This document shows, piece after piece, positions 7,571 through 58,752 of a stretch of DNA of 64,000 nucleotides (position 1 is the first letter of the stretch; every line of letters starts with the position of its first letter). The DNA comes from Chamaelirium japonicum. Its lineage: Eukaryota > Streptophyta > Magnoliopsida > Liliales > Melanthiaceae. Below the pieces are notes generated by a model, which did no database searches, was not told the origin of the DNA, and worked only from the letters and a program-made list of their open reading frames with translations. Location of the stretch: positions 70,665,463-70,729,462 of the forward strand of contig OX393553.1 of the NCBI GenBank assembly GCA_947650365.1, read 5' to 3'. Position numbers and translations under genes: made by a program.

Positions 7571-10500
7571 TCAAATCGATGAATCCTTCTCGAGAATGGC
7601 CAACAGTTGATCACTCCACATATCGATAGCCCCCGGCAAGCACCAATGCAGGCAATCACTACCACCCATGCCCCAAGGCCAGTGTGATCCGGGGTGCCCA
7701 TCAGCCCTCATCTCCATAGCCTTGGTCACATCCAACACCCCATACCTCCTCTTCCCTCTTCTCTTCACTCTCTCCATCTCTTCTACCTGGATCTGTCTAA
7801 GCTCCCATGTAATCCCACCCTTGCCCAAATCAGTGCCACTCCAGGGTTGGGTTCTGTTGCAGTACCCCCCATCAAACCAATGGTGATGGTCGAAATGCGA
7901 CGGTCCGTAGGTCCTCAACAAGGTGACCAGCCCTTCGCAGTCCTCGCACGCACCGATGAACTCGAGGGCCGTTCTGAAGGCCCTTCGGACCGCGAATCCA
8001 AGACCGAGGTCCGTTACGCCGGTGCCCCCCTCACAAGAGACGCAGCCTATGAGCTGGCCGCCCTCGTAGATGTAGCTCTTCTTGAAGAACCAGTTGCCAC
8101 CGGAGATGATGACATAGTGTAGCCCAGGTAGTTTGTCGGCCCAGTCTCGGTCGATCCTGTCGAGGTGTACGTCGAATCCGGAAGCTTTACCGTTTACGAT
8201 TCTCGGGGTTTGAGCCACGAGGAACTCTGTCCACATGACCATGAGGGTAAAGTTATGGGATGGGAAGTGCCATGTCCTGAACTTGTCATTAGCATCCTTG
8301 TAGGTGTCTATGGGAGCCTCTGCCTGCAATCAAATTTCAGTAACTATGTGAGCCAATAGGCTTTGGAGAGGTAATCAATTGTGTTGTCAGATTATATATA
8401 AACCACAATATTGAGAATTAAATATATCCGAATATCACATCTATAAATCTTAGCCACTCTTTATATATATAAAATTAGAGGATATTATATCCCTTATTTC
8501 AATTAAACTTTGGATGACATGAAGTCCTGAACATCTAAAATGTAGATGCAGATGCAACTTAAGAAACCATGAAATGAAGCAACAACGTAGTGAGTAATCC
8601 AAGTTAATAATGGGTTTTTTATTTTTTTATGCCTATAGTTATTAGAAACCAAATATCATGGAACTTTCGTCATTTAAAATCTATCTACATAGATGCAGGA
8701 ATTCATGCCAAGTATAGATCTTGAAATTTGTACAATCCAAAGGAAAGACATCAGAAAATGAGTTGTGAGCTATAAGAGGGGGGAGGGGGGGTGTTATAGT
8801 GAGCTATGAGCGATAAGAGGAGAAAATGAGTTGCGATCGAAAATGTCACTCTATAAGTTTAAGAATTTGTTAAAATTTGGTGGGTGTTTTGTCTATGTTA
8901 AGATGATCTTCCTCACCAATATTTAACAAATTCCAAAACTTCTAGGTCCATCTAATGGTAGAAGCTTTATCGACCATCCATAGTAACCGTTAATTTTTGT
9001 TAGCACGTTTGATGACCCTGGAAGTTTTGAAATTTTTAAAAAATTAGTGAGGATGATCGTCTTACCCTAGACAACACACCCATCCAATTTCAAGAAATTT
9101 CGAAAGTAATAGGGTTGCATTTTGATCACATCTCATTTTCAATCCAAAATGGAAGATAAATTTACAACCCATTGACAACCCGCTCCAATCGTTGGATAAA
9201 GATTTCATAATTTGTTGATTTTTTGTGAGAAGAATTAATCACTTTGACAAGTTGATCATCCTCACAAAAATTTAAAAAAAAATATGAAAACTCCAAGGGT
9301 CTCAAATGTGTTATTTAAATTAACGGTTCAAATGGACAGTTAAAAAAGCTTCAACATTTGACGTCCTTAGAGGTTTTGGAATTTACTGATTTTTTGTGAG
9401 AATAATCAATTTGCCATAGTTATAGGTCATCCTAAAAAAAAATCAACAAATTATAAAACCTTTATCCCATAAAACAAATTAACTGTTCATATGGACGATT
9501 AAGAAAACTTCTAACATTTGACACCCTTAGATATTTTAAAATTTACTGATTTTTTGTGAGGGATGATCAACTTGTCATAGTAATCATCCTCACAAAAAAT
9601 CAGCACATTTTAAAACCTTTATCAAGCGATTGCAGCGGGTTGTCAATTTACCTCCTATTTTGGGTTGTCAATAGATCCAAAGCAAAATAAACTAAAACAC
9701 CATTACAGAGGAGTTTTTTTTTTCTTCCAAATTAGCATTATTAAAAGTTTAATTTCCCAAACACCATTACTTCGAAACTAATTGCCAAAGTTCTATTCCT
9801 TTGGGCTGAACCTAGGACTGTCAATTGTTTAGGGCTAGCCCGATGCCTAATCGTTCGATCCGCATGCATACGAGCTGGGTTTATTTGAAATTGGACTATG
9901 CTTAACATGGACACAATTTTAAATCCGAACTTGAATTTGGGCTGAGCTCGGGCCATATTAAGCTCGGTCTTCATTTTAGCCGAACTCGAATAAATTAGAA
10001 CATATGTTGGGCCTCCTGGAATTTCGAACCGTGGTACCGAGAGACTTCAGTCTTTTAACCAAAGGATAACACTAATAAGTAGGGCTGGCAATTTTGGACC
10101 CGACACGGCAGACCCGACACGACCCAACACGAAGTTAGCGGGTCTGGGTCAGAGCTAAACGGGTTCGGGTCGTAAACGGGTCGACACGATAGACCCGTTT
10201 AATAAACGGGTCGGGTCCGGGTTTAGGGTCTGGACACGATAGACCCGGGAAGACCCGTTTAGTATTCAACGGGTCGTGTCGGGTCGGGTCTACCCGCAAT
10301 CCGATACTATACTATATAATACCAGCGGGTCTTTCGGGTCAGGTCGGGTCGAGTCGGATTGGGTCAACTGAATAGTCCTGGGTGATAAACGGGTCTTACC
10401 GGGTCTTATTGGGTCTACCCGTTTATTAGCGGGTCGGGTACGGGTTTAGGATCTAGACACGATTAGTTAAACGGGTTGGGTCTGGGTCTGGGGTTTTTTG

Positions 10501-13500
10501 ACACGAACCCGACTAGACACGACACGACCCGACCCATTGCCACCCCTACTAATAAGGGTGTATTTGACTTTTTAAGCCATGTACAAATGGACATTTCAAG
10601 AGGTACATCAAGAAATAGTGTGTAGACTTAACGATGCTATGATCTGTTTGTAGGTATTTGATCATCATAGTAGATTGAAATTCAAAAAAAAAATTCAGGC
10701 TGACCTTTTTTTTTTGGGTTGAACATGGGGGCAAAACTTCGGACCACGCTTGGACGTGAAAAAACCATATAGAGTTTAAGCCAGATTGAGGAGTCACAAC
10801 CGGACCTCCGGGATGCGCCACATGCCGGTGCTACATAGGAAAACTACCTTCAGGTGGGGAAGACAATCGCCGCCCGACAAAATACAGACAGAAGTGCCAC
10901 TACTGGCACACCTACAGAGACCGCCACTAGACGATGGAACATAAATCACGGCAAAGGAGGAGGACGCCACAACCGGTGCTACATACATCACGGTCCATCG
11001 ACCAAAACCCAAGAGACACGGGCTAAAAATAACAACAAAAAAGAAACAAACAAAAATTGGCGACCCATCGCCATCTCCAGCAGATCGGCACCTTCAGATC
11101 GGAGTCGCAACCATCGCCACTCCATCATCGACCGTCACCATCCGCCAGGAGACCGCCCGTCGAGCCGATGAGGTTCCTTGAAAAACCACTGGTGGAGAAC
11201 CTCACGCCGGCTCATAATCCGACCATCTCGCAGCCCTCGACGGGAAATCGGACCTCGGCGCCGAGTGAGGGACGGCAGTCGACCGCAGTGAGAAAGCCAC
11301 GACTCCGGCTCGACAAACACAAAATCGCCCGACCGTCGGAGTAGCCCCTATTCATGACAGGGGAAAAGAAAAGGGGCCATATCCTACCCCTAGACTGTGT
11401 AGATCCATCTCCCGACCTCCCCGGAACCACCGGCGATGGCCGAGGAGGCCGAGAGCAAGCCCAAAAGAAAACCCTAACCCTAGGGGAAAGTGGAGGAGAA
11501 GTCGACTCCCTCTCTAAAGACGGTTCAAAACTTGATTTAGACTGACCTTGACCGACTCAGCCCGACCATATTGACAGGACTAGTTGAAGCCCTATGTTGT
11601 CGGTGTTACCCTTGAGAAAGGGAAACTTTATTCATACCCCAAAAATCTGTAATTAGCCCCCGTATCCCTAGCGTTTCTCAATAACTTACTCAACAATCCT
11701 CTAATACCAACAATGCCCTTTTTTTTATACCCCAAACCCCAAAGCCCCTGCTCAGCGTCTTTTGTACCCCAACCCAACCCAATGTTCGTTTAAACCTTAG
11801 CCCACGCCCAACCCGTCGGGTTGTGCGGGGTGGATTCGGGTTAACCCGCCCAAAGTTGGGTTGGGTTCGGGTTGGCCCGCCCAAGTTGCAGCTAGGGGTG
11901 GCAATGAGTCGTGTCGTGTCGGGTTCGTGTCGTGTCTAGTTTCGTGTCGTGTCCAAAACCCCTAGACCCGGACCCGACCCGTTTAACTAATCGTGTCTAG
12001 ATCCTAAACCCGTACCCGACTCGCTAATAAACAGGTAGACACGATAAGACCCGATAAGACCCGTTTACCACCCAGATCTATTCAGTTGACCCGATCCGAC
12101 CCAATCCGACTTGACCCGAAAGACCCACTGGTTTTATATATTATAGTATCGGATTGTTGGTAGACCCGACCCGACCTGACCTATTGAATGCTAAACGGGT
12201 CTTCCTGGGTCTACCGTGTCCAGACCCTAAACCCGGACCCGACCGTTTAATAAACAGGTCTATCGTGTCGACCCGTTTACGACCCGAACCCGTTTAGCCT
12301 TGACCCAGACCCGCTAACTTCGTGTCGGGTCCTGTCGGGTCGAGGAGAAATGATTCGGGTTGGGCTCGGATTAGCCCGCCCAAATTCGGGTTGGGTTCGA
12401 GTTGGGTTCAGGTTGGCCCGCCCAAGTTGCAGCTCTACTTGTGCCTTCAAGTATCAGCCAACTGCATGGGGTTTATTTAAGAGTGGGGTGTATTCAAGAG
12501 TGCATATAATTGGGGTATATTTAAGGGGGTATGTGTTTGATTGGGGTATAATCAAGTTGGGGCGGGCCATTTAACTGGGGTGTATTGAAGGTGGGGTGTA
12601 AGGGGGAAGGGTATTTTTGGGATAGGAGTGAGGTATGAAAAAAAAAACTGGGGTGTATTCAAGTTTCTTGGAAATGGGGGCTAATTACAGATTTATGGGG
12701 TATGAATAATATTTCCCTTGAGAAACCATTCCATCCTAGTGTCGACAACAAGGAAAAATTGTACTTTAGCCCCTCAAAGTTTGACCCAGAATCACTTAAC
12801 CCTTGTTTTTTTGTGCCAAATCGGCCACTAAGAGGGTGTTTGGTATCACTCCGAAACCGCCGGTTTCTCTGTATTTTAAAAATAACGGATAGATTTTGTG
12901 CCACTGAAATGAAAACTCGGGAACGATCATTTATTGTTTTGTCTGTTTCTTTCCCAATCGAAACACTAAAACCTCAAACTATACTAAAAATAGTAATTGA
13001 CAGAAATACCCCATGCCTAAAGTGAACAGAAAAATAATCACATATGGGGTTTAATAAAAAAAAAATTATAGAAGTTCCCATATGTTATTGGTTTAGTTGA
13101 TTTTACCCGTCATAGCTAGTCAATTAGTGACCTAGAAATCCTAAAATTAAGGGTAGTTTAGAAAGTAAAATTAATTTAATTAATAATACAAAAATTTATG
13201 ATGGGTATTAATGTAATTTTACTTTTATGCTACTTTTGTTAAATACAAGCGGAACGAAAGGGGGGCAAATTGGGGGTGTTTGGCATACGAAACTGCGCCT
13301 GTTTCACCTATATCTCAACCAGAAGAGGGCATTCCTGTTAAATATCATTTCTAGTGTAAACGATGATTTCGCATTACGATTGGCATAGGAATCCACAGAA
13401 CGTTATAAAATCTTTCCCAATTCTCGGTACCTATGAAACAAAACTATCCGTTATTTTAAAAATAACGAATAGTAGGATAGAAACGGGCGGTTGCGGATTG

Positions 13501-14689
13501 ATGCAAACACCCCCTAAGCAAACTATGGGTCCAACTTAGGTCGGGTGAACCAAGCCAATCCAACTTAAATGGGTCATATTGATTTGGGTATTTTGACCAA
13601 ATATGTTGGTTCGGTTATAATTAAGTTTTGTGAACCTGACTAAAAACGGATCAGTTCTGGGTTGGAGGATGGCTACATAAATCCAACCAAATCCGAGAAT
13701 ATAATTTATATATATTAGTCCACTGATATCTAATAGTATAATACTAAACTGGAGTTCTCTCTTCCGTGTTGCGACAGTGGACCACTTTGGAAGAGCCAAA
13801 ATCATTCTCCCGAGTGTGAACACAGTTCTCTCTCATATATCCTATTAAAAACCTACAGTAAAGATGATAAATATCCATTCAATAGCATTTAGTAATCATT
13901 TGATGTTAATTAGAAAAATCATTAGTACTATCTATCTTTCTCTCTCTAACAAGCTATAAGTGAATCACACTCGAACAAGAATGTCAATCACTCCGTATTG
14001 CACACTTCTTCGGACAATTGTGATGTCATCTGTGCTAAGTGGCACGCATCAAGTTCATCCGAACATCATAAAATCTAAAGCCTAATGTGTAAATAGCCAT
14101 AATTATTGTTTTTCAGAGTCACCGAACCGGAATCGAGTTGATCCGATCCAATCCGGATTGGTTTGGGTTTCAGCATGGAACTTGGGGGGTGGGGGGGGGG
14201 GGGGGGGGGGGAGTTGAGCATCACCTGAGACAAGAGGCACAGCATGGACTCGAAGTGGTTCCGAGCGAGCGAGTCCCCGACGAGGGCCATCTTCTTACCA
14301 CGAACGATGCTCAAGAACGTCCGCGGCTCGAACCTCGGCAGCTCGCACCCGCCGGCGGGCTTCCACCTCCACTGCAGATGGCCCTCCCCCTTCCCGTACT
14401 TCCCGCAGTTCCTCACGTCCGGCAGCGTCGGGCACGTCACGTTCGTATAGGCCGCGGGCGCTCCCGGCTCCCACACCCACTGGCCGGCGAACAGATCACA
14501 CTCCTCTTCGCCGGTGGTCGGCGGGGCTTGTAGCAATATTGGGTCAGTCATGCTGAGGTGAGGGAAGGGAGGGCTATGGTTGAGGGCTTTCTGCATGGAG
14601 TGTAAGGTTAATAGGAGGAGGAGGATGGAGAGGGAGAGGAGGCACAGCAAGGAGGAGCCTATGCTGTGGTGCACCACCTTGGACTCCAT
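7571..14689 (-). CDS. TBL gene 1: TRICHOME BIREFRINGENCE-LIKE O-acetyltransferase, join(7571..8323, 14225..14689)
   Basis: A Golgi type II membrane protein, predicted to move acetyl groups onto a wall polysaccharide, most likely xyloglucan given its TBL19-22-like sequence. Exon 1 (155 codons, ATG at 14689-14687, MESKV) has a hydrophobic anchor at residues ~12-30, the PMR5N domain starting at CDLFAGQWVWEPG, and the GDS block (VGDSLARN). It ends CAG|GTGATG (donor 14224-14223). Exon 2 starts after TTTGATTGCAG (acceptor 8325-8324), phase 0, and carries the PC-esterase part, 'LLRTYGPSHF', 'YCNRTQPW', 'RADGHPG' and DxxH in DCLHWCLPG, with stop at 7571-7573. Total 405 aa, normal for the family. The usual family 'HWFF' is NWFF here. 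The 5.9-kb intron is packed with transposons. The splice model is mirrored exactly in TBL gene 2. TBL number and substrate are inferred. Confidence 0.88.
8860..9645. repeat. Cluster of palindromic MITE-like units in TBL1 intron
   Basis: At least three related units in a row, each bounded by 'gtgaggatgat' / 'atcatcctcac' words facing inward and containing 'tagaagcttta', 'ccatccatag' or 'ttaactgttcatatggac' variants and a 'cctagaag'/'cccttagag' word. Similar to the unit at 7205-7445. Probably overlapping insertions of one MITE family. Confidence 0.5.
10080..10548 (-). mobile_element. hAT-like MITE (CGGGTC-rich family) with perfect 8-bp TSD
   Basis: Starts TAGGGCTGGCAA and ends TTGCCACCCCTA, imperfect terminal inverted repeats, flanked by the exact 8-bp duplication CTAATAAG (10072-10079 and 10549-10556), the hAT hallmark. 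The interior is an unusual array of cgggtc / gacccg words on both strands with no coding capacity. It lies in the TBL1 intron. Orientation is arbitrary. Confidence 0.9.
10690..11560 (-). other. GC-rich segment, possible gene or LINE 5' fragment
   Basis: GC-rich, Ser/Arg/Pro-coding in all frames, with an 'accctaaccctaggg' word near 11476 and short open frames on both strands (the longest about 100 codons), none of which I recognise. Placed between a MITE and a transposon in the TBL1 intron. On the minus strand it reads like a plant 5' leader followed by low-complexity coding sequence, but no domain is visible. Confidence 0.3.
11620..12717. mobile_element. Non-autonomous TIR transposon, copy 1 (1098 bp), nested
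   Basis: Terminal inverted repeats of about 45 bp: GGGAAACTTTATTCATACCC at the left, and its mirror ending TATGAATAATATTTCCC at the right, both continuing into TCTGTAATTAGCCCCC. Flanked by an exact 8-bp duplication TTGAGAAA (11612-11619, 12718-12725). The interior holds a hAT-like MITE (11893-12341) between two copies of a 'ggcccgcccaagttgcagct' segment. There is no transposase. A second copy of the entire nested structure is at 17052-18190. Superfamily uncertain (hAT or Mutator, given 8-bp TSD). Confidence 0.85.
11893..12341 (+). mobile_element. hAT-like MITE (CGGGTC family) nested in TIR element, 3' end altered
   Basis: Starts TAGGGGTGGCAATGAGTCG, the reverse complement of the end of the 10080-10548 copy, and is collinear with it to about 12330. 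The far inverted repeat is missing: it stops in 'gtcctgtcgggtcgagg' instead of reaching a TTGCCA-type end. Confidence 0.75.
12752..12828. repeat. Half of an inverted-repeat MITE (same family as 59653-59892)
   Basis: Words 'ttgtactttagcccctcaaa', 'cacttaaccc' and 'gtgccaaat' match the left arm of 59653-59892. The copy is cut off where the Harbinger-like element begins. Confidence 0.5.
12832..13514. mobile_element. Harbinger-like MITE (683 bp), TAA TSD
   Basis: Ends GAGGGTGTTTGG...AAACACCCCC with TAA on each side (12829-12831, 13515-13517), as in PIF/Harbinger MITEs. An internal 'gggggtgtttggcatac' at about 13274 suggests a second end nested inside or an internal duplication. No transposase. 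Confidence 0.75.
14191..14211 (+). repeat. Run of 21 G beside the TBL1 exon 1 donor
   Basis: Uninterrupted G homopolymer beginning 12 bases inside the intron from the splice donor, on the minus strand a C-run. Absent at the same place in TBL gene 2. Could be an assembly or sequencing length artefact. Confidence 0.9.
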
Positions 14690-14910
14690 GTTTGTGTAGA
14701 GAGGCCTGACTGGTGGGGGGCGGGGAGGGGGGGGGGGGCGGGGGGTGAAGGAGAGGGTTTTTCAGGTTGGTTGAGTAGAGATGGGGTGCTCTTAGCTTGT
14801 TAGTAGGGGGGGAATATGGAATGCCCTCATTTTGAGGACCCAACAGCTGATGTGGCTATCCGTGATTGGAGCATAAGAGAAAAAAATTTAAGTCAAAGGC
14901 TTTTTTTTTT

Positions 14911-17051: not shown

Positions 17052-18190
17052 GGGGAATTTTATTCATACCCCAAAAATCTGTACTTAGCCCCCGTATCCC
17101 TAGCGTTTCTCAATAACTTACTCAACAATCCTTTAATACCAACAATGCCCTTTTTTTTTGTACCCCAGACCCCAAACCCCCTGCTCAGCGTCTTTTGTAC
17201 CCCAACCCAACCCAATGTTTGTTTAAACTTAGCCCAAGCCCAACCCGTCGGGTTGGCCGGGTTGTGCGGGGTGGGTTCGGGTTAACCCGACCAAAGTCGG
17301 GTTGGGTTCGGGTTGGCCCGCCCAAGTTGCAGCTAGGGGTGGCAACGAGTCGTGTCGTGCCGGGTTCGTGTCGTGTCTAGTTTCGTGTCGTGTCCAAAAC
17401 CCCTAGACCCGGACCCGACCCGTTTAACTAATCGTGTCAATATCCTAAACCCGTACCCGACTCGCTAATAAATAGGTAGACACGATAAGACCCGGTAAGA
17501 CCTGTTTACCACCCGGATCTATTCGGTCGACCCGATTCGACCCAATCCGACTTGACCCGACCTGACCCGAAAGACCCATTGGTATTAAATATTATAGTAT
17601 TGGACTGCTGGTAGACCCGACCTGACCCGACACGACACGACCAGTTGAATACTAAACGGGTCTTCCCGGGTCTACCGTGTCCAGACCCTAAACCCGGACC
17701 CGACCCGTTTATTAAACGGGTCTATCGTGCCGACCCGTTTACGACCCAAACCCGTTTAGCTTTGTCCCAGACCCGCTAATTTCGTGTCGGGTCCTGTCGG
17801 GTCGAGGAGAAATAATTCGGGTTGGGCTCGGATTAGCCCGCCCAAATTCGGGTTGGGTTTAGGTTGGACTCGGGTTGGGTTCAGGTTGGCCCGCCCAAGT
17901 TGCAGCTCGACTTGTGCCTTCAAGTGTCAGCCAACTGCATGGGGTTTATTTAAGAGTGGGGTGTATTCAAGAGTGTATTTAATTGGGGTATATTTAAGGG
18001 GGTATGTGTTTGATTGGAGTATAATCAAGTTGGGGCGGGCCATTTAACTGGGTGTATTGAAGGTGGGGTGTAAGAGGGAAGGGTATTTTTGGGATAGGAA
18101 TGGGGTATGAAAAAAAAATTTTGAGGTGTGATCAAGTTTGTTGGAAATGGAGGCTAATTACAGATTTATGGGGTATGAATAAAATTTCCC
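17052..18190. mobile_element. Non-autonomous TIR transposon, copy 2 (1139 bp), nested
   Basis: Second copy of the element at 11620-12717, with the same ends (GGGGAATTTTATTCATACCC ... GTATGAATAAAATTTCCC) and the same internal order, including the nested MITE. Flanked by TTTTTTTT on both sides, compatible with an 8-bp duplication in a T-run, and abutting another MITE on the right. Confidence 0.85.
17334..17808 (+). mobile_element. hAT-like MITE (CGGGTC family) nested in TIR element copy 2
   Basis: Starts TAGGGGTGGCAACGAGTCG, collinear with 11893-12341, and has the same altered 3' end, so the nested MITE was present before the host element duplicated. Confidence 0.75.
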
Positions 18191-18198
18191 TTTTTTTT

Positions 18199-28744: not shown

Positions 28745-31700
28745 TCAAACCAATGGACCCTTCTCGAGAACGGCCAACAGTTGGTCGCTCCACATATCGA
28801 TTGCCCCCGGCAAGCACCAATGCAAGCAGTCATTACCACTCCTGCCCCAAGTCCAGTGTGATCCAGGGTGCCCATCAGCCCTCATCACCATAGCCTTGGT
28901 CACATCCAACACCCCATACCTCCTCTCCCCCCCTCTCTTCACCCTCTCCATCTCTTCTACTTGGATCTTCCTAAGCTCCCAAGTAATCTCACCCAAGCCC
29001 AATTCAGTGCCACTCCAGGGTTGGGTCCTATTGCAGTACCCCCCATCAAACCAATACCCATGCTCGAAATGCGACGGCGTGTAGGTCCTCAACAAGGTGA
29101 CCAGCCCTTCGCACTCCTTGCACGCACCGATGAACTCGAATGCCGTCCTGAACACCCTCCTGACCGCGAATCCAACACCAAGGTCCGTTACGTTACCGTC
29201 CCCCTTGCAAGAGACGCAGCCTATGAGCTCGCCACCCTCGTAGACGTAGTTCTTTCTGAAGAACCAGTTGCCACCGGAGATGATGATGTAGTGTAGCTCA
29301 GGTAGTTTGTCGGCCCAATCTCTGTCGATCCTGTCGAGGTGCACGTCGAATCCGGAAGCTTTACCGTTTACGATTCTCGGGGTTCGAGCCACGAGGAACT
29401 CTGTCCACATGATCATGAGGGTAAAGTTATGGGATGGGAAGTGCCATGTCCAGAACTTGTCATCAGCATCCTTGTAGGTGTTTATTGGAGCCTCTGCCTG
29501 CAATCAAATTTCAGTAACTATGTGAGCTAATAGATTTTGAAAAGGTGGCCACATTGTACACTATATATGCACTTGACATTAATAGCCATACTCATATGAG
29601 CTTCGAAAACCATACAAACTAGATTCACCTAATTTACTTCTCTGAAATTTTCAGAGGGAAATTGTCAGTCAGATACTATTAATAAATATTGATAGGTAAT
29701 CAATTATGTTGTCAAAACATAAATCACAACTATGTTGTCAAAACCTAAATAGGTAGAGTTGCTAAATCTATCCGAATATCATTGTGCATTAGAAAATGTA
29801 AATTGCTTTTATTTTATAATTAAGATCAAGAAATGTTGTCCGAACGAACAGCTAAGTGTGTCCTTTTGGGGATCAGTGTCGAGTACAAGGGGTATCGTTG
29901 CTATAACCACTTGACTCGTTGTCTTGTATCTTTCCCTACATCTTCTTTGTCAAGGATATCCTTGCTACTCCTATATATGTGGTTCAGGACCTTACCTTTC
30001 TGGAGACTCCTCACACTTCGTCTTCGACCTTTGAGAACCTTCTCCCTCTTCTGTTCGTCCTAACTACTCCACCTGCACTGCTTTATCATCATCGTCATCG
30101 TTACCCACCTTTATCACTTCCCACAGGGAGAAGTGTCATCCCCTCCTCGTTGGGTTATAAGCACCTTTTCTCAAGGCTACACTCGTCAGCAAAATCCTGG
30201 CTCTTCAATCCCCATCCTCTCCTCAAATGAAGGTTACTTCCACTAGGACTCTTAGTGTTCTTGATACTTTTGGTACTACGCCTACTTGCCCAATCAATCT
30301 TCGCCTATTAAGGATCTGCTCCCGTCGTATTATTACCCTCAACGTGACCACCACCCACTTGTCTTTTTAGGTTTGTCTATGTGCCATTTTACTGTTTTGG
30401 CTTTGTCTCTGTCACCTCCTACTTGACCTAGTTCATTGCCTTTATAGATATCCTTCACTCAGACCAGGCCTTCAAGCTGTGACGACCAAGATCCAATAGG
30501 CCAATAGCCAAGAGCCAAGACTCCTGAGGCGGGAATGCCAAGATGGATGAGGTGAGGTGAGGTGTACAAGGCCATGAGTTAGCCCCACATTGCCTGGAGA
30601 GAAGGAGATCCTGAGCTACTTATATAATTTCCCCTCCTAAACATAGAAGACGCGTTTTAAAAACCGTGCGCTACTACGGAATTCGTAAGAACTCCGTAGT
30701 TAAGCGTGCTCGAGCGAGAGTAGTACCAGGATGGGTGACCACCCTGGGAAGTTCTCGTGCGGGCACGGGCAAAGCGGACAAAATCTTATATGTTTGGGGC
30801 GGATGTTACAAAATGGTATCAGAGCCGGTTCTCCTCGCTATGGGGGGTCTAACCCTACACGAGGACGTGTAGCCCTAAGGGGGGTGGATTGTGACGACCA
30901 AGATCCAATAGGCCAATAGCCAAGAGCCAAGACTCCTGAGGCGGGAATGCCAAGATGGATGAGGTGAGGTGAGGTGAGGTGAGGTGTACAAGGCCATGAG
31001 TTAGCCCCACATCGCCTGGAGAAAAGGAGATCATGAGCTACTTATATAATTTCCCCTCCTAAACATAGAAGACGCGTTTTAAAAACCGTGCGCTACTACG
31101 GAATTCGTAAGAACTCCGTAGTTAAGCGTGCTCGAGCGAGAGTAGTACCAGGATGGGTGACCACCCTGGGAAGTTCTCGTGCGGGCACGGGCAAAGCGGA
31201 CAAAATCTTATATGTTTGGGGCGGATGTTACACAAGCAAACTCAGACTTTGGACGTCGTCCCACTCTCAACTAGTGTTGAGCCCGTTAGCTGCAAATGGA
31301 CTTACAAGATCATGACCCTTATGGATTTATTGAGTAGCACAAGGCTCGGTTGGTGGCACATGTTTTTACTCAGGAGTACGGTATATACTAAGAAGAGACT
31401 ATTCTACCCAAAGCTAATTAGATGACCATGGTCCGTGTCCTCCTGACGATTGCAGTTGTTCACCATTGGCTACTTCGCTAGATGGACGTGAAGAATGACT
31501 TTCTTTACGGACTTTTTTCAGAGGTTTTCTACATGAGTCTCCTCCTAACCTGCTCACTCATCCTTAGCATGTATGTCGTCTTTGTCGGGTCATTTATGGG
31601 CTCAAGAATACCTCTCGTGTCTAGTTTGAATGCTTAAGGAGGGCAATCATTAAGATCATTTTTTAAGAGCTCGCAGGACCAGTCTTTCTTTGTATGGTTC

Positions 31701-34097
31701 TCACCTTAGGAATGGGTGATTCTCCTGTTGTACATTGATGATATGGTCATCATAGATGACTCTGCTTTTATTTACTCTTTTCTGTGATGACCAAGATCCA
31801 ATAGCCAATAGCCAAGACTCATGAGGCTGTGATGCAAAGATAGATGAGGTGAGGTGAGGTATCCAAGGCCATGAGTTAGTCCCACATCGCCTAGAGAGAA
31901 GGAGATCATAAACTACTTATATAATTTTTTCTCCCAAACATAGAAGACACGTTTTAAAATCGTGCGCCGCTACGGATTCTGTAAGGACTCCGTAATTAAG
32001 CATGCTCGGGCGAGAGTAATATAGGATGGGTGACCTCATAGGAAGTCCTCGTGCGGGCACTGGCAAAGCGGACAATATCTTGTTCGTTGGGACGGATGTT
32101 ACATCTTCAGCAGTACTTACGGTGCTAGTTCAAGATAGACTTATGTCCTCTTTGATACTTCCTCAGGTTTAAGATAGCCCATAGTAAGTGAGTGATTCTG
32201 CTATCCGAGCAGAAGTAAACTGCCAGCATCCTTAGTCGAGATACTATTTTCATTGTTCTGACACTCCACTCAAGTTTCATGTGAAGCTCCAACCTACAGA
32301 TGATGAGCCTCTCTCAGAGCTTACTCGGTACAGATATATTATTTCACATATATATCTCATGGGTTTGGACTTACTGGCTACATCGATCAACTAGCACATG
32401 AATAACTATTTGTTGTTTGCTAACGTTGACCCAACTTATATCAAAAGAACCCAACATGTGGCTAAAGCCTAATATGGGCATCTAGCTTGCTAGTAAATAG
32501 CTAACAATCATTGTTTTTTAGGGACATAGTGTTAGGTCCATGACAACATATTCGTATGGTGAAAAAGACAAACAAGAGATAGTTTTTCACCAGATTCCTC
32601 CCGAAAAGATACATTTATAGCAAGTCCCTTCGTTAACTTTTCTCCCATATATATTAAAACCTACAATTGTTACTCTTTAGTTATAGTGCTTTACAGATTA
32701 TTACTACTACAGTAAAATACGATTTCAAAAAAAAAATTGTTACTATTTTTTGCCGAATTGTTACGCTTCTATGTATTTCCTTGTACAAGGTAAAATGAAC
32801 ATTTTCCAAACTAAAGGACCTAACGTGTGCTTATTTTGTTAAATACGAGTTATTCGAAGGACCAAACACGGTACCAATTTCACCTTGTTTTTCATACCTA
32901 CTACTGACCCGAAAACCGATATAGATCCAACCTTAGTGAGGGTCGGGTTGGTTCATGTATATACCCAATTCAGATTGATTCAGGTTCCGATATGGTAGAA
33001 CCGAACTAGTTCAATCGGGTTCCGGGTTGGCTCAAACCTAAACCAACCCGACCCGATTTGCACCCTGAGGGAAAACTATTGTGATATCTGGTGGAACAAG
33101 GGTGGTTGGGGGAGGGGGAGGGGGGGGGTGTCTAGTGTCGTGGCAATGGGTCGGGTCGTGTCGTGTCTAGTGTCGTGTCGTGTCCAAAACCCCTAGACGT
33201 GGACCCGACCCGTTTAACTAATCGTGTCTAGATCCTAAACCCGTACCTGACCCGCGAATAAACGGGTAGACCCGATAAGACCCGGTAAGCCCCGTTTACC
33301 ACCCGGGTCTATACAGCTGACCCGATCCGACCCAATCCGACTCGACCCGACCTAACCCGAAAGACCCGCTGGTATTATATATTATAGTATCAGATTGCGG
33401 GTAGACCTGACCCGACCCGACCCGTTGAATACTAAACGGGTCTTCCCGGGTCTACCGTGTCCAGACCCTAAACCCGTACCCGACCCGTTTATTAAACGGG
33501 TCTATCGTGTCGACCCGTTTAAGACCCGAACCCGTTTAGCCCTGACCCAGACCCGCTAACTCCGTGTCGGGTCCCAAATTGCCAGCCCTAGGGGTGCGCT
33601 TGGAGCATCACCTGAGACAAGAGGCACAGCAGGGATTCTGCGTGGTTCCGAGCGAGTGAGTCCCCGACTAAGGCCATCTTCTTGCCACGTACGATGCTCA
33701 AGAACGTCCGCGGCTCAAACCTCGGCAGCTCGCACCCGCCGGCCGGCTTCCATCTCCACTGCAGATGGCCCTGCCCCTTCCCGTACTTCCCGCAGTTCCT
33801 CGCGTCCGGCAGCGTCGGGCACGTCACGTTCGTATAGGCCGCGGGCACTCCCGGCTCCCACACCCACCGACCGGCGAACAAATCGCACTCCTTTTCGCCG
33901 GCGGTCGGCGGGGGGTGTGGTATTGGATCAGTCATGTTCAGATGGGGGAGGGGAGGGCCGTGGTTGAGGGTTTTCTTCATGGAAGTGATGGTGAAAGGAT
34001 TGGAGGGGTGTAAGGTTAATAGGAGGAGGAGGATGGAGACGGAGAGGAGGCATAGCAAGGTGGAGCCTATGTTGTGGTGCAGCACCTTGGACTCCAT
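28745..34097 (-). CDS. TBL gene 2: TRICHOME BIREFRINGENCE-LIKE O-acetyltransferase, join(28745..29497, 33612..34097)
   Basis: Close paralogue of TBL gene 1, with the same predicted Golgi polysaccharide acetyl-transfer role. Exon 1 (162 codons) starts at MESKV (ATG 34097-34095), chosen over an in-frame upstream ATG at 34367 because gene 1 starts at the same place and the extension is Lys-rich, non-conserved leader. It has a hydrophobic anchor (residues ~12-31), the PMR5N start CDLFAGRWVWEPG and VGDSLARN, and ends CAG|GTGATG (donor 33611-33610). Exon 2 begins after TTTGATTGCAG (29499-29498), is exactly 753 bp as in gene 1, and carries 'LLRTYTPSHF', 'YCNRTQPW', 'RADGHPG' and DCLHWCLPG. Total 412 aa, no internal stops. 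The intron of 4.1 kb contains a copia relic, Cassandra sequences and a MITE that ends 22 bases from exon 1. The acceptor substrate is inferred. Confidence 0.9.
30478..30810 (+). repeat. Cassandra 5' LTR
   Basis: 333 bp, TGTGACGACC...GATGTTACA, with three GAGGT units near 30550. Immediately followed by AAA and the primer-binding site. Confidence 0.95.
30666..30768 (+). other. 5S rRNA-like region inside Cassandra 5' LTR
   Basis: Carries the conserved internal-promoter half of plant 5S rRNA: 'gaactccgtagttaagcgtg', 'cgagagtagtacc', 'aggatgggtgacc', 'gggaagttctcgtg'. The 5S 5' third is altered (gcgctactacgg), so it is not a functional 5S rRNA gene but may still bind Pol III factors, as proposed for this family. 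Confidence 0.9.
30814..30826 (+). promoter_or_regulatory. Cassandra primer-binding site
   Basis: TGGTATCAGAGCC, the standard complement to the 3' end of plant initiator methionine tRNA, three bases after the 5' LTR. Confidence 0.9.
30877..30889 (+). promoter_or_regulatory. Cassandra polypurine tract
   Basis: AAGGGGGGTGGAT directly before the TGTGACGACC start of the 3' LTR. Confidence 0.85.
30890..31232 (+). repeat. Cassandra 3' LTR
   Basis: 343 bp, nearly identical to the 5' LTR. The length difference is two additional GAGGT units. Its 5S-like block is at 31088-31190. Confidence 0.95.
31783..32103 (+). mobile_element. Solo Cassandra LTR (older)
   Basis: 321 bp, TGTGATGACC...GATGTTACA, about 85-90% like the neighbouring LTRs by eye, with a 5S-like block at 31962-32063. 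No internal domain or second LTR. Flanks TTTTC / TCTTC agree at 4 of 5 positions with a decayed target duplication. The copia reverse transcriptase reading continues on both sides, confirming a simple insertion followed by LTR-LTR recombination. Confidence 0.9.
33133..33590 (+). mobile_element. hAT-like MITE (CGGGTC family) next to TBL2 exon 1
   Basis: Starts TAGTGTCGTGGCAATGGG and ends AATTGCCAGCCCTA, collinear with the 10080-10548 copy in reverse orientation. Flanks GGGGTGTC / GGGGTGCG match at 6 of 8. Its right end is 22 bases from the exon 1 boundary, inside the intron just past the donor. Confidence 0.85.
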
Positions 34098-34399
34098 GGT
34101 TGTGTAGAGGAATGATAGGAGGTGGTGAAGGCCGGAGATCGAGGGGTGAAGGTTGGTGGAGAAGAGATGGGGTGCTCTTAGCTTTTTAGTAGGAGGGGGA
34201 AGATGGAACCACTTCATTCTGAGGGACCTTTTGGAGGGTTTTTTCCATGTTCTGACCACCGGACTCACCTGCTCCTCTAGATCTTCAAAATGGAGTCTTT
34301 TTCTTCTTTTCTTATTAAGGAGGGGACTTTTTTTTTTTTTGGGAGGAACCAGGGGGGTTCTATTCATGGAGCTCTTGTCCGACCAATAGAAAACCCATT

Positions 34400-40676: not shown

Positions 40677-41945
40677 TCACCACCGCCCATCATCCCGCCA
40701 TCCCTTCATCATCTCCAGCAATATCTCGTTCCACGTATCGATCGGGCCCGGCAAGCACCAATGCACGCAGTCGTTCTGCACCCGCTCCTTGGGCCCACCC
40801 GCGAACGGGTCCGGGTACATGTACGGCCCCGGGTGCCCGTCCGGCCGCAACAGCGCCAGTCCGGTCACGTCCAGCGGCTGGATCCTCAGCCCCCCTCCTC
40901 CTCTCTCCGCCGCCACCTTTACGGCCGCCACCTCCTCCACCTCGATCCTCCTCATCTCCGCGTCCATGTACTCCATCGCCTTCTCCCCTACCCTGTACGG
41001 CTCCTTCCTCGGGCACGCCCCGGCCTTATCCCACTCCCCCTCGAAATGGGCCGGCGAGAAGGTGGTGACCACCACGTGCCTACCGGCGGGCGGCGCGGGC
41101 CGGCGGGCGACCGCGCCGAGCGTCGTTCGGAATGCCCGGCGGAAGACGTCGAAGAATCCGATCTCGGTGTGGTTGTGGCCCGGGCAGTGGTGGCACCCGA
41201 GGACTGCGTCGCCGTCGTAGTAGATCGCCGGGTGGAGGAACCAGTGGCCCACCGAGAAGACCAGTACGTCGATCCCATCCAACTCCGACGCCCACCTCTC
41301 GTCCGGCGAGTCGAGGTGCAGCTCGTTGTGATCGAGCCCCGACGCCGGCGACTTCTCGACGCCGCTCACGAGGAACGGGGACCAGAAGACGGAGACGGTG
41401 GCGTTGAAGGCGGGGAACGCCCACCGGCGGAACCTGTTGTCGTCGCCGTCGCGGTAGGTGAGCTCCGGGGGGGACGCGGTGGCGAGGAGGCAGAGGAGGG
41501 ACTCCAGCTGGTTGCGGGCCATGGAGTCGCCGACGAAGGCCAGGTGCTTGTGCCGGATCAAGCGGAGGAAGGCGGCGGGGTCGAAGGGGCGGAGCTTGCA
41601 CCGCTTTGGCCGCCACCGCCAGTGGAGGTACCCGGCGTCGGGGCGGCCGTGGGTCATGCAGTTCTGGCCGTCCTTGATGGTGCCGCAGCTGGTGCCGTTG
41701 TAGCGGGGGCCCGCGGAGTCGGGCACCCAGCGGCCGTCGGAGAAGTCGCAGCTGGGCTTTCTCGGGCTTTGCGGGCTGATGGTCGAGTTTTGGGTTGGTG
41801 GAGGAGAGGGAGTTGGGTTGAAGGAGAGGGGGAAGAGATAGAAATGGAGGAGAGCCAGAGGAAAGAGAGCATAGATTGCCCTTGTGATCAGCTTCTTGAT
41901 GAACAAATGGGATGGGGGGTGCTGGTGGTGGTGGCTTGTACCCAT
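40677..41945 (-). CDS. TBL gene 3: AXY4/TBL27-like xyloglucan O-acetyltransferase, single exon
   Basis: Golgi-localised acetyltransferase predicted to O-acetylate xyloglucan side chains; the sequence resembles Arabidopsis AXY4 (TBL27). Start chosen at MGTSHHHQ (41945-41943) because the 23 upstream in-frame codons are a GAGA microsatellite (EREREREERGERR), which is leader. Landmarks in the 422-aa product: anchor near residues 17-38, a Pro/Ser stretch, CDFSDGRWVPD, 'CGTIKDGQNCMTHGRPDAGY', the GDS block VGDSMARNQLESLLCLL, 'GHWFLHPA', 'TTFSPAHFEG', 'RPDGHPGPYMY' and DxxH in NDCVHWCLPGP, with stop at 40677-40679. GC-rich third positions, unlike its surroundings. It lacks the intron found after CLLSQ in genes 1 and 2. 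Two foldback elements lie upstream. Long open frames on the other strand and frames are shadows. Confidence 0.95.
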   Translation of the reverse strand: MGTSHHHQHPPSHLFIKKLITRAIYALFPLALLHFYLFPLSFNPTPSPPPTQNSTISPQSPRKPSCDFSDGRWVPDSAGPRYNGTSCGTIKDGQNCMTHGRPDAGYLHWRWRPKRCKLRPFDPAAFLRLIRHKHLAFVGDSMARNQLESLLCLLATASPPELTYRDGDDNRFRRWAFPAFNATVSVFWSPFLVSGVEKSPASGLDHNELHLDSPDERWASELDGIDVLVFSVGHWFLHPAIYYDGDAVLGCHHCPGHNHTEIGFFDVFRRAFRTTLGAVARRPAPPAGRHVVVTTFSPAHFEGEWDKAGACPRKEPYRVGEKAMEYMDAEMRRIEVEEVAAVKVAAERGGGGLRIQPLDVTGLALLRPDGHPGPYMYPDPFAGGPKERVQNDCVHWCLPGPIDTWNEILLEMMKGWRDDGRW

Positions 41946-42128
41946 ACCCTCTGCTCCTTTCTCTCTCCTCTCTCCTCTCTCCTCTCTCTCTCTCTCTCTC
42001 TCTTCTGTGTTCAATGGAGGTTAACAGAGACGAAGAATAGAAGGGAAAGGGTAGAGGAGTGGGGAAGGTGATGATTGAGTCAACAGAGACGATGAATAGA
42101 AGGGTAGTCCCTCGGCTCAGAATAGAAC

Positions 42129-57640: not shown

Positions 57641-58394
57641 CCATTGAGCCTTTTTTGCACGTGTGAATCATAGTTGTTGATGTTATGTCCACGGGATTAT
57701 GGAATTACTAAATAGCAGCCTCCCCCCGTTTCGATCTCCGAACCACTTTAAGACCTTACTCGAGTGTCATGTTCGACCGCCTGGCCAGTCGAAGACTTTG
57801 ACCAACCGATCGGATGGAAAAATTATTATTTTATTTTTATTTAGATCTCTCTCCTCAAACAAATGATTTTTTGAAACCAACTCTAATCAGGTCATCACTC
57901 AGCATCCGACCGATCTGGAATTCACAAAGTCTGTAGGTTTGTGATTCTTATAGTTGCTGAGCCTATATATAGACTTGTATATCAGCTCAAATTAACGATG
58001 CAACCTATTGAGCTTTAAGATTTCATCTTGTTGAGATTTATTAGAATTTTTACTGTATCCTTCTAGTTTGATCTTTTTGATTATTCATCCATCTTGTTCT
58101 TAGTGAAAAGATAGATCGAACTTAAGGTTAGTTCTTCCTCCTATTTTCATATCATATTGGATGCCTAGATGCCCTTATCCAATTGCATATGAGATTATAT
58201 TACATCAATTCTCTTCACGAATTGTTTTGAAGTCATGTGTGGACTTCAAGGTAATACTTTCGAGTGAATACCGAAGACCTCTCCTTAAGAGAAGAAGGTC
58301 ATCGTGTGTCCACATATTGTGAACAAGGATCAAGGATGCGAACCGACTGCATTTCATGTATGGATTGAAAGTTGAAGATATTATATGCATCAAC
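57641..58394. other. Intergenic, nothing recognised
   Basis: A/T-rich mixed sequence with no domain or clear element ends; LTR-like words but no support. Confidence 0.45.
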
Positions 58395-58752
58395 AGAGGC
58401 AGGGACAATTAGACCGAATCGTGTGATAGTATAGTGTCTAACTTGTACCTTATTATCCTGGTTTAGTCCATAGACTCGGATATTGTCCCGTGGATGTAAG
58501 AACCTACAGTATGGATTATTGTCAATAATATCGTGTGTTATCTCTGAGATTTGTATTTTACCCCCCCAGAGGCAGGGACAATTAGACTGAATCGTGTGAT
58601 AGTATAGTGTCTAACTTGTACCTTATTATCTTGGTTTAGTCCATAGACTCAGATATTGTCCCGTGGATGTAAGAACCTACAGTATGGATTATTGTCAATA
58701 ATATCATGTGTTATCTCTGAGATTTGTATTTTACCCCCCCCCCCCCCCCCCC
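58395..58752. repeat. 173-bp tandem duplication, each unit ending in a C-run
   Basis: Units start 'agaggcagggacaattaga' at 58395 and 58568 and differ by only about four bases. Unit 1 ends in 7 C and unit 2 in 19 C (58734-58752). Confidence 0.93.

Follow-up and report, generated by a model that had tools for sequence, protein, structure and literature searches.

Cassandra, the closest described relative of the element studied here, is recognised by hallmarks that include a methionine primer-binding site (PBS) and a length of 563-968 bp, and was retrieved from 15 of 22 Asteraceae genomes (PMC10853983, as excerpted here). Its transcription is described as beginning in the 5S region of the 5′ LTR and ending in the 5S region of the 3′ LTR, with 18-bp duplications (PMC10886601, citing Kalendar 2008); the part of PMC3095306 drawn on here reports no terminator after the Cassandra 5S and an RNA that continues for >400 nt. 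Direct tandem Cassandra arrays with one target-site duplication (TSD) are described in an excerpt of PMC11899658. A published query for the lineage (PMC7215508) looks for box A and box C separated by 15-25 nt and, at a distance of 5-200 nt from box C, the PBS.

A complete Cassandra element in the window

The stretch of DNA analysed here (the window, 64 kb) corresponds to C5:70665463-70729462 of the 1.519-Gb assembly of Chamaelirium japonicum. The published Cassandra query was met once in the window, at 30698-30825, within an element composed of the following features (window coordinates).

30473-30477, no strand: target-site duplication CAAGC, left copy
30478-30810, plus strand: 5′ LTR, 333 bp, TG...CA
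30548-30562, plus strand: TGAGG microsatellite of the 5′ LTR, 3 units (3′ LTR counterpart 5 units, 30960-30984)
30621-30626, plus strand: TATATA, 28 nt 5′ of the inferred 5S +1 (30649)
30650-30769, plus strand: 5S rRNA-like region of the 5′ LTR (RF00001, 47.1 bits)
30655-30658, plus strand: T4 run just past the inferred start
30698-30709, plus strand: box A (motif from PMC7215508)
30728-30740, plus strand: box C (motif from PMC7215508)
30811-30889, plus strand: interior, 79 bp, non-coding
30814-30825, plus strand: PBS TGGTATCAGAGC, methionine tRNA type
30877-30889, plus strand: polypurine tract AAGGGGGGTGGAT
30890-31232, plus strand: 3′ LTR, 343 bp
31072-31191, plus strand: 5S rRNA-like region of the 3′ LTR (RF00001, 47.1 bits)
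31077-31080, plus strand: T4 run in the 3′ LTR, putative RNA polymerase III terminator
31233-31237, no strand: target-site duplication CAAGC, right copy

The two direct LTRs of 333 and 343 bp described in the first-pass annotation were reproduced to the base, as were its 79-bp interior with PBS and polypurine tract (PPT) and its exact 5-bp TSD. Both LTRs share the termini TGTGACGA...ATGTTACA, and thus the TG..CA ends (TGTGAC..TGTTACA) that, with a short TSD, a TRIM requires. The three substitutions and one 10-bp length change that had been counted between them were also recovered: global alignment gave 3 mismatches in 333 columns and a single 10-bp gap, so that 330 of 333 aligned columns are identical, compared with the at least 74% LTR-LTR identity used to define the family. 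Two of the substitutions are transitions and one is a transversion (K2P 0.0091), and the gap equals two TGAGG units. The overall length of 755 bp lies inside the published range of 563-968 bp, and no ORF of at least 110 aa overlaps the element, which was the measure for lack of coding capacity.

The box A motif RGTTAAGYRHGY and the box C motif RRRATRGGTRACY are present in both LTRs with a spacer of exactly 18 nt; box A-box C pairs arose in 0 of 200 mononucleotide shuffles of the window. The PBS, internal to the 5′ LTR, starts 73 nt past box C (5-200 nt being allowed), and the PPT directly adjoins the 3′ LTR. As the LTR pair, PBS, PPT, TSD and published query all agree, the earlier assignment to an intact Cassandra TRIM stands, and membership of the lineage is firm on these sequence features. 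The element is very probably a complete, non-autonomous TRIM of the Cassandra lineage, including the RNA polymerase III transcription model discussed below.

Origin of the 5S-like sequence

An Infernal cmscan search of the 64-kb window at the Rfam gathering threshold produced only two matches, both to RF00001 and one per LTR (47.1 bits each, cut-off 38, E 1.2e-06), which bears out the 5S sequence that had been noticed in each LTR from promoter words. The 5S homology proper covers 83 columns at LTR positions 200-282 (60-85% of the LTR, away from the termini), as measured against a 5S reference sequence, with the remaining Rfam match outside these 83 nt. Box A (AGTTAAGCGTGC) and box C (AGGATGGGTGACC) of the element are identical to the reference host 5S copy (in L011); in other host 5S copies, box A varies at positions 53, 58 and 59, or box C at 83.

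Since the Rfam match spans the whole model, the region might be read as a true or pseudo 5S rRNA gene and not a retrotransposon at all. This is extremely improbable. The score of 47.1 bits compares with 103.7-114.7 for the 47 host 5S matches scored, the initial portion of the model aligns with sequence that has no local 5S homology, and the 120-nt region is predicted at minimum energy to form a series of hairpins, by eye unlike the three-way fold of 5S. In addition, LTRs, PBS, PPT and TSD surround the 5S-like region, whereas the scored host 5S genes sit in tandem arrays elsewhere. A 5S-derived LTR region of a Cassandra element therefore remains the reading adopted here.

The host arrays consist of units of about 1.32 kb on C12, C173 and C214 (L009-L020, 47 matches scored). 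In the C173 stretch (L012-L020), two 5S gene variants alternate, one with changes at 58 and 104 and the other at 83.

Nested insertion in a TBL intron

The surroundings of the element comprise a two-exon gene on the minus strand and two older insertions.

28745-29497, minus strand: TBL exon 2 (remainder of PC-Esterase)
29498-33611, minus strand: TBL intron, GT..AG, 4114 bp
33612-34397, minus strand: TBL exon 1 (PMR5N, PC-Esterase start; 34397 is the open frame's end)
31233-31782, plus strand: decayed Ty1/copia pol, direct target of Cassandra (RVT_2, E 5.1e-09)
31783-32103, plus strand: solo LTR of an older Cassandra (83% identity; 5S region scoring 21.3 bits, under the cut-off)

The exons encode PMR5N and PC-Esterase domains on the minus strand and meet the intron at GT..AG junctions, in agreement with the antisense placement in a TBL intron proposed earlier. 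The intron contains the Cassandra element, a copia relic and the solo LTR, the last of which was absent from the first-pass annotation. The plus-strand translation of 31233-31782 is copia reverse transcriptase with stops, and the relic extends both ways, by eye to about 30320-30477 and from 32104 to about 32450. Among five relic pieces searched with Pfam, one gave RVT_2 above cut-off (5.1e-09), one a weak RVT_2 match (0.21), one a chance-level match to another family (0.26), and two no match. Judged from the translation and the Pfam match, the direct target of Cassandra is a dead Ty1/copia reverse-transcriptase relic inside the TBL intron.

The solo LTR lies 550 bp downstream of the intact element (K2P 0.147-0.150 to its two LTRs), and its flanks, TTTTC and TCTTC, represent a TSD with one change. 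It would be a separate, earlier insertion, probably shrunk by LTR-LTR recombination. At E up to 1, the only other matches in the window were 12-28 bp long, and there was no additional Cassandra copy. When the flanks were joined across the Cassandra site, they read as a copia-like frame with stops, DQAFKQTQTLDVVPL, and the same was true across the solo LTR, DMVIIDDSAFIYSFQQYLRC (likeness by eye in both cases). As the joined short flanks give one continuous copia-like frame at either insertion, both TSDs are supported, and the empty sites are easy to test.

The third LTR 550 bp away, together with the frequency of arrays among the sampled loci of the same genome, raises the question of whether the LTR pair is a local duplication, or two separate LTRs, with no single insertion behind it. 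We regard this as very improbable given that the TSD is exact, that PBS and PPT are in place, and that the copia-like frame is unbroken across the joined flanks.

Further repeats and TBL-like sequences were noted in the window. An apparent second two-exon TBL gene occupies 7571-8329 and 14075-14761 (minus strand), its exons being about 90% and 83% similar to the host gene exons. At 40677-42020 (minus strand), a single frame encodes a TBL-like protein of 447 aa. A 1.1-kb direct repeat (11620-12719 and 17052-18192, 90.8% identical) ends in GGG..ATTCATACCCC / GGGGTATGAATA..CCC, resembling a DNA transposon with inverted ends, and holds a GACCC-rich family found also at 10111-10548 (minus strand) and 33125-33574. 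A 173-bp unit is present in two tandem copies, 97% alike, at 58394-58740.

Copies in the same genome and age of the insertion

A search of the assembly with an LTR-plus-interior unit gave 3899 first-look candidates, and a search with the interior only gave 1494; 40 of each were scored. The first sample (20 loci) was picked by likeness to the window copy and the second (35 loci) by the interior alone. In the first sample, 47 of 47 full LTRs had TG..CA ends and 46 had box A-18 nt-box C. Sequence patterns searched in viral_contigs and genome_contigs gave no match.

A systematic asymmetry with a short 5′ and a long 3′ LTR, which if true would have argued against ordinary reverse transcription, was seen in the first 20 loci and was dropped because it was absent from the second sample, in which the TSD-flanked pairs of whole LTRs had 4/5, 3/3, 4/4, 5/5, 3/1, 3/4 and 2/2 TGAGG units (5′/3′). 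Other variable columns mostly agree between the LTRs within elements. The apparent asymmetry was likely caused by ascertainment through a query with 3 units.

If rates of 1.3e-8, 7e-9 and 2.5e-9 substitutions per site and year are assumed, the K2P distance of 0.0091 translates into insertion ages of 0.35, 0.65 and 1.81 My, respectively, with Poisson limits of 0.07 to 5.27 My overall. Thirteen TSD-flanked single copies with whole LTRs (from 6 of the 20 loci of the first sample and 7 of the 35 of the second) showed 0, 0, 1, 3, 4, 5, 6, 6, 9, 15, 15, 23 and 29 LTR mismatches; array loci, truncated copies and copies without a matching TSD were left out of this list, among them L023, L028, L030 and L063, with 0, 2, 5 and 12 mismatches, respectively. 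Three of the 13 sister copies have fewer differences than the three of the window copy. The recent insertion claimed in the first-pass annotation thus holds in relative terms, sampled sister copies spanning 0 to 29 mismatches: from its LTR differences, the window copy is on the young side among the sampled copies and is not the youngest.

All three substitutions fall inside a stretch of 21 columns, an arrangement with a probability of about 0.011 if the sites were random. LTR1 has the rare base at the first of them, the alternative being present in 46 of 47 and 54 of 57 LTRs of the first and second samples, respectively; at the second, the rare base is in LTR2, with G in 47/47 and 55/57. The third site is polymorphic in the family: 41/47 and 48/57 LTRs have C, the LTR1 base, and the solo LTR shares A with LTR2. 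Polarising by the solo LTR alone, which would place two changes in LTR1 and one in LTR2, was abandoned since the LTR1 base at the third site is the commoner one in the samples. The window Cassandra is a clean, roughly datable marker.

Promoter conservation and a transcription model

Conservation was measured in the second sample, in which 29 of the 35 loci yielded 57 full LTRs. Mean pairwise identity was 0.978 for box A and 0.979 for box C, compared with 0.900 for the spacer, 0.906 just past box C, 0.955 for the first 143 bp and 0.943 for the whole LTR. The box A motif was fitted by 54 LTRs, the box C motif by 52, and both at 18 nt by 50. TATATA was present in 57/57 LTRs (exact-retention rank 0.006 among LTR 6-mers), T4 in 57/57 (0.055 among 4-mers), the box A core in 55/57 (0.034) and box C in 49/57 (0.056). 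Restricting the comparison to a single LTR from each of the 29 loci weakened the ranks of TATATA and T4 to 0.043 and 0.124 and gave 0.083 for the box A core and 0.034 for box C; as the sampled copies are related, these ranks are not probabilities.

The host gene has box A at 5S position 50, and the same numbering applied to the element places its start at 30649. Relative to a start placed from box A in this way, 55/57 LTRs show a T4 at +7 to +9, and 6/57 carry another T4 farther downstream. TATATA is at -28 in the window element and at -27 in most sampled copies, which are one base shorter. Most sampled Cassandra LTRs, the two of the window copy among them, are without the 5′ half of 5S, with TATATA near -28 and a T4 near +7 to +9. 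The external 5S promoter of Arabidopsis, as given in an excerpt of PMC9043955, has TATATA at -28, GC at -13 (-12 being typical) and C at -1; the window element has neither a GC at -12 nor a C at -1. For the host 5S genes examined, all 36 occurrences at 12 loci (neighbours overlap, and some are counted twice) carry C at -1, and none has TATATA within 40 nt upstream. As these genes lack it, TATATA seems unnecessary for 5S transcription in this plant.

In the model considered here, the RNA polymerase III machinery would be recruited via box A and box C, perhaps with TATATA at -28, and would start at about 30649 in LTR1. The transcript would pass the PBS, interior and PPT and end at the only downstream T4 (31077-31080) in LTR2; this run and 30655-30658 are the only runs of at least four T on the sense strand of the element. 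The resulting RNA (30649-31080, 432 nt) would carry short end repeats for strand transfer, methionine tRNA would prime it, and reverse transcriptase and integrase would be supplied by an autonomous element. The predicted transcript repeats 10 nt, GACGCGTTTT, at both ends, so that the T4-to-start repeat is 10 nt here versus the 18 reported. Its predicted fold is more stable than that of every one of 100 shuffles (z -4.96), a stability to be expected of a TRIM with palindromic parts.

By analogy with the published RNA polymerase III model, the kept boxes, TATATA and T4 fit that model without proving it. T4 is a short terminator, and it counts against the model that the polymerase would have to pass over the one at +7 in LTR1 as it sets out. 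TATATA could serve RNA polymerase II just as well, and the mobile RNA of the same Cassandra element might come from RNA polymerase II, with the 5S part as a passenger or in another role. Such an origin would suit a TATATA that is among the best-kept LTR 6-mers (57/57, 0.006) and lies 28 nt before the inferred start, the tandem multi-unit Cassandra transcripts and ESTs in the part of PMC7215508 used here, and the TATA boxes of Cassandra-like TRIMs without 5S (PMC10853983, in excerpt). It is possible but rather unlikely, in that boxes A and C show higher conservation than the adjoining 5S-derived sequence, a difference of which a passenger would have no need. Transcription by RNA polymerase III is accordingly the version retained.

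Variant copies and head-to-head composites

Two rare LTRs with full-length 5S, L043:739-857 and L079:1599-1717 (minus strand; TSD CGTAC), scored 80.0 and 75.3 bits, between the 36-48 bits of the other nine 5S matches in the same Rfam run and the 103.7-114.7 bits of the 47 scored host matches. In both, TATATA sits at -83, and the stretch between 200 upstream and 250 downstream is free of T4. A 112-bp insert is present in the other LTR of L079 and L043, and an insert of 112-113 bp occurs also in L041, L042, L044, L046 and L071. ARAGORN found no tRNA-like gene in this insert (0 tRNAs in 8 loci), nor did Rfam match a tRNA in 4 loci.

Head-to-head Cassandra composites were observed at L076:592-2535 (C8:35.03 Mb), L077:897-2408 (C12:61.64 Mb) and L078:677-1983 (C12:29.95 Mb), each within one exact 5-bp TSD (CTTTC, TTTCC and TTGCC, respectively). 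In L076 both inner ends are whole and joined by the linker ATAT; in L077 one arm is short by 9 bases, with the linker TCT; and in L078, 3 and 187 bases are lost and there is no linker. These three represent the composites of the first sample (3/20 loci), and 6 of the 35 loci of the second have pieces on both strands, one of them ambiguous. In L047 (C10:5978500-5985800), a 7-kb cluster comprises 18 LTR pieces and 9 interiors of Cassandra that face both ways. The parts of PMC11899658 and PMC7215508 drawn on here do not name an inverted Cassandra form, and none was evident in one literature search.

The structure of the composites suggests that cDNAs may be end-joined before integration. In a wider proposal, TATATA near -28 and T4 near +7 to +9, a layout shared neither by the host 5S genes examined (no TATATA) nor by the full-length-5S LTRs, would mean that the element may have built its own promoter-terminator arrangement and does not just copy the host 5S gene, and the composites would reflect such end-joined cDNAs; this is speculative and, in our estimate, unlikely. 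The genome is well suited to studying the divergence of the Cassandra promoter from the host 5S gene and the formation of arrays.

Comparison with known systems

Helenus and Ajax (TRIMp3), as described in part of PMC10886601, are likewise TRIMs whose LTR contains an RNA polymerase III promoter; compared by this description, the promoter of Helenus is tRNA-like, and Ajax comes from nemerteans. Cassandra-like TRIMs without 5S from Asteraceae, in the excerpt of PMC10853983, resemble the window copy as small LTR elements with PBS/PPT and a TATA box, but lack the 5S promoter that the window copy has. With published Cassandra, the window copy has in common the size range, LTR 5S boxes 18 nt apart, methionine PBS, PPT, absence of a long ORF and 5-bp TSD; it differs in that its 5S likeness is cut to about the 3′ two thirds (83 nt) and its LTRs carry a TGAGG microsatellite. 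None of the differences excludes membership of the lineage, and the window copy is an ordinary member of a known one.
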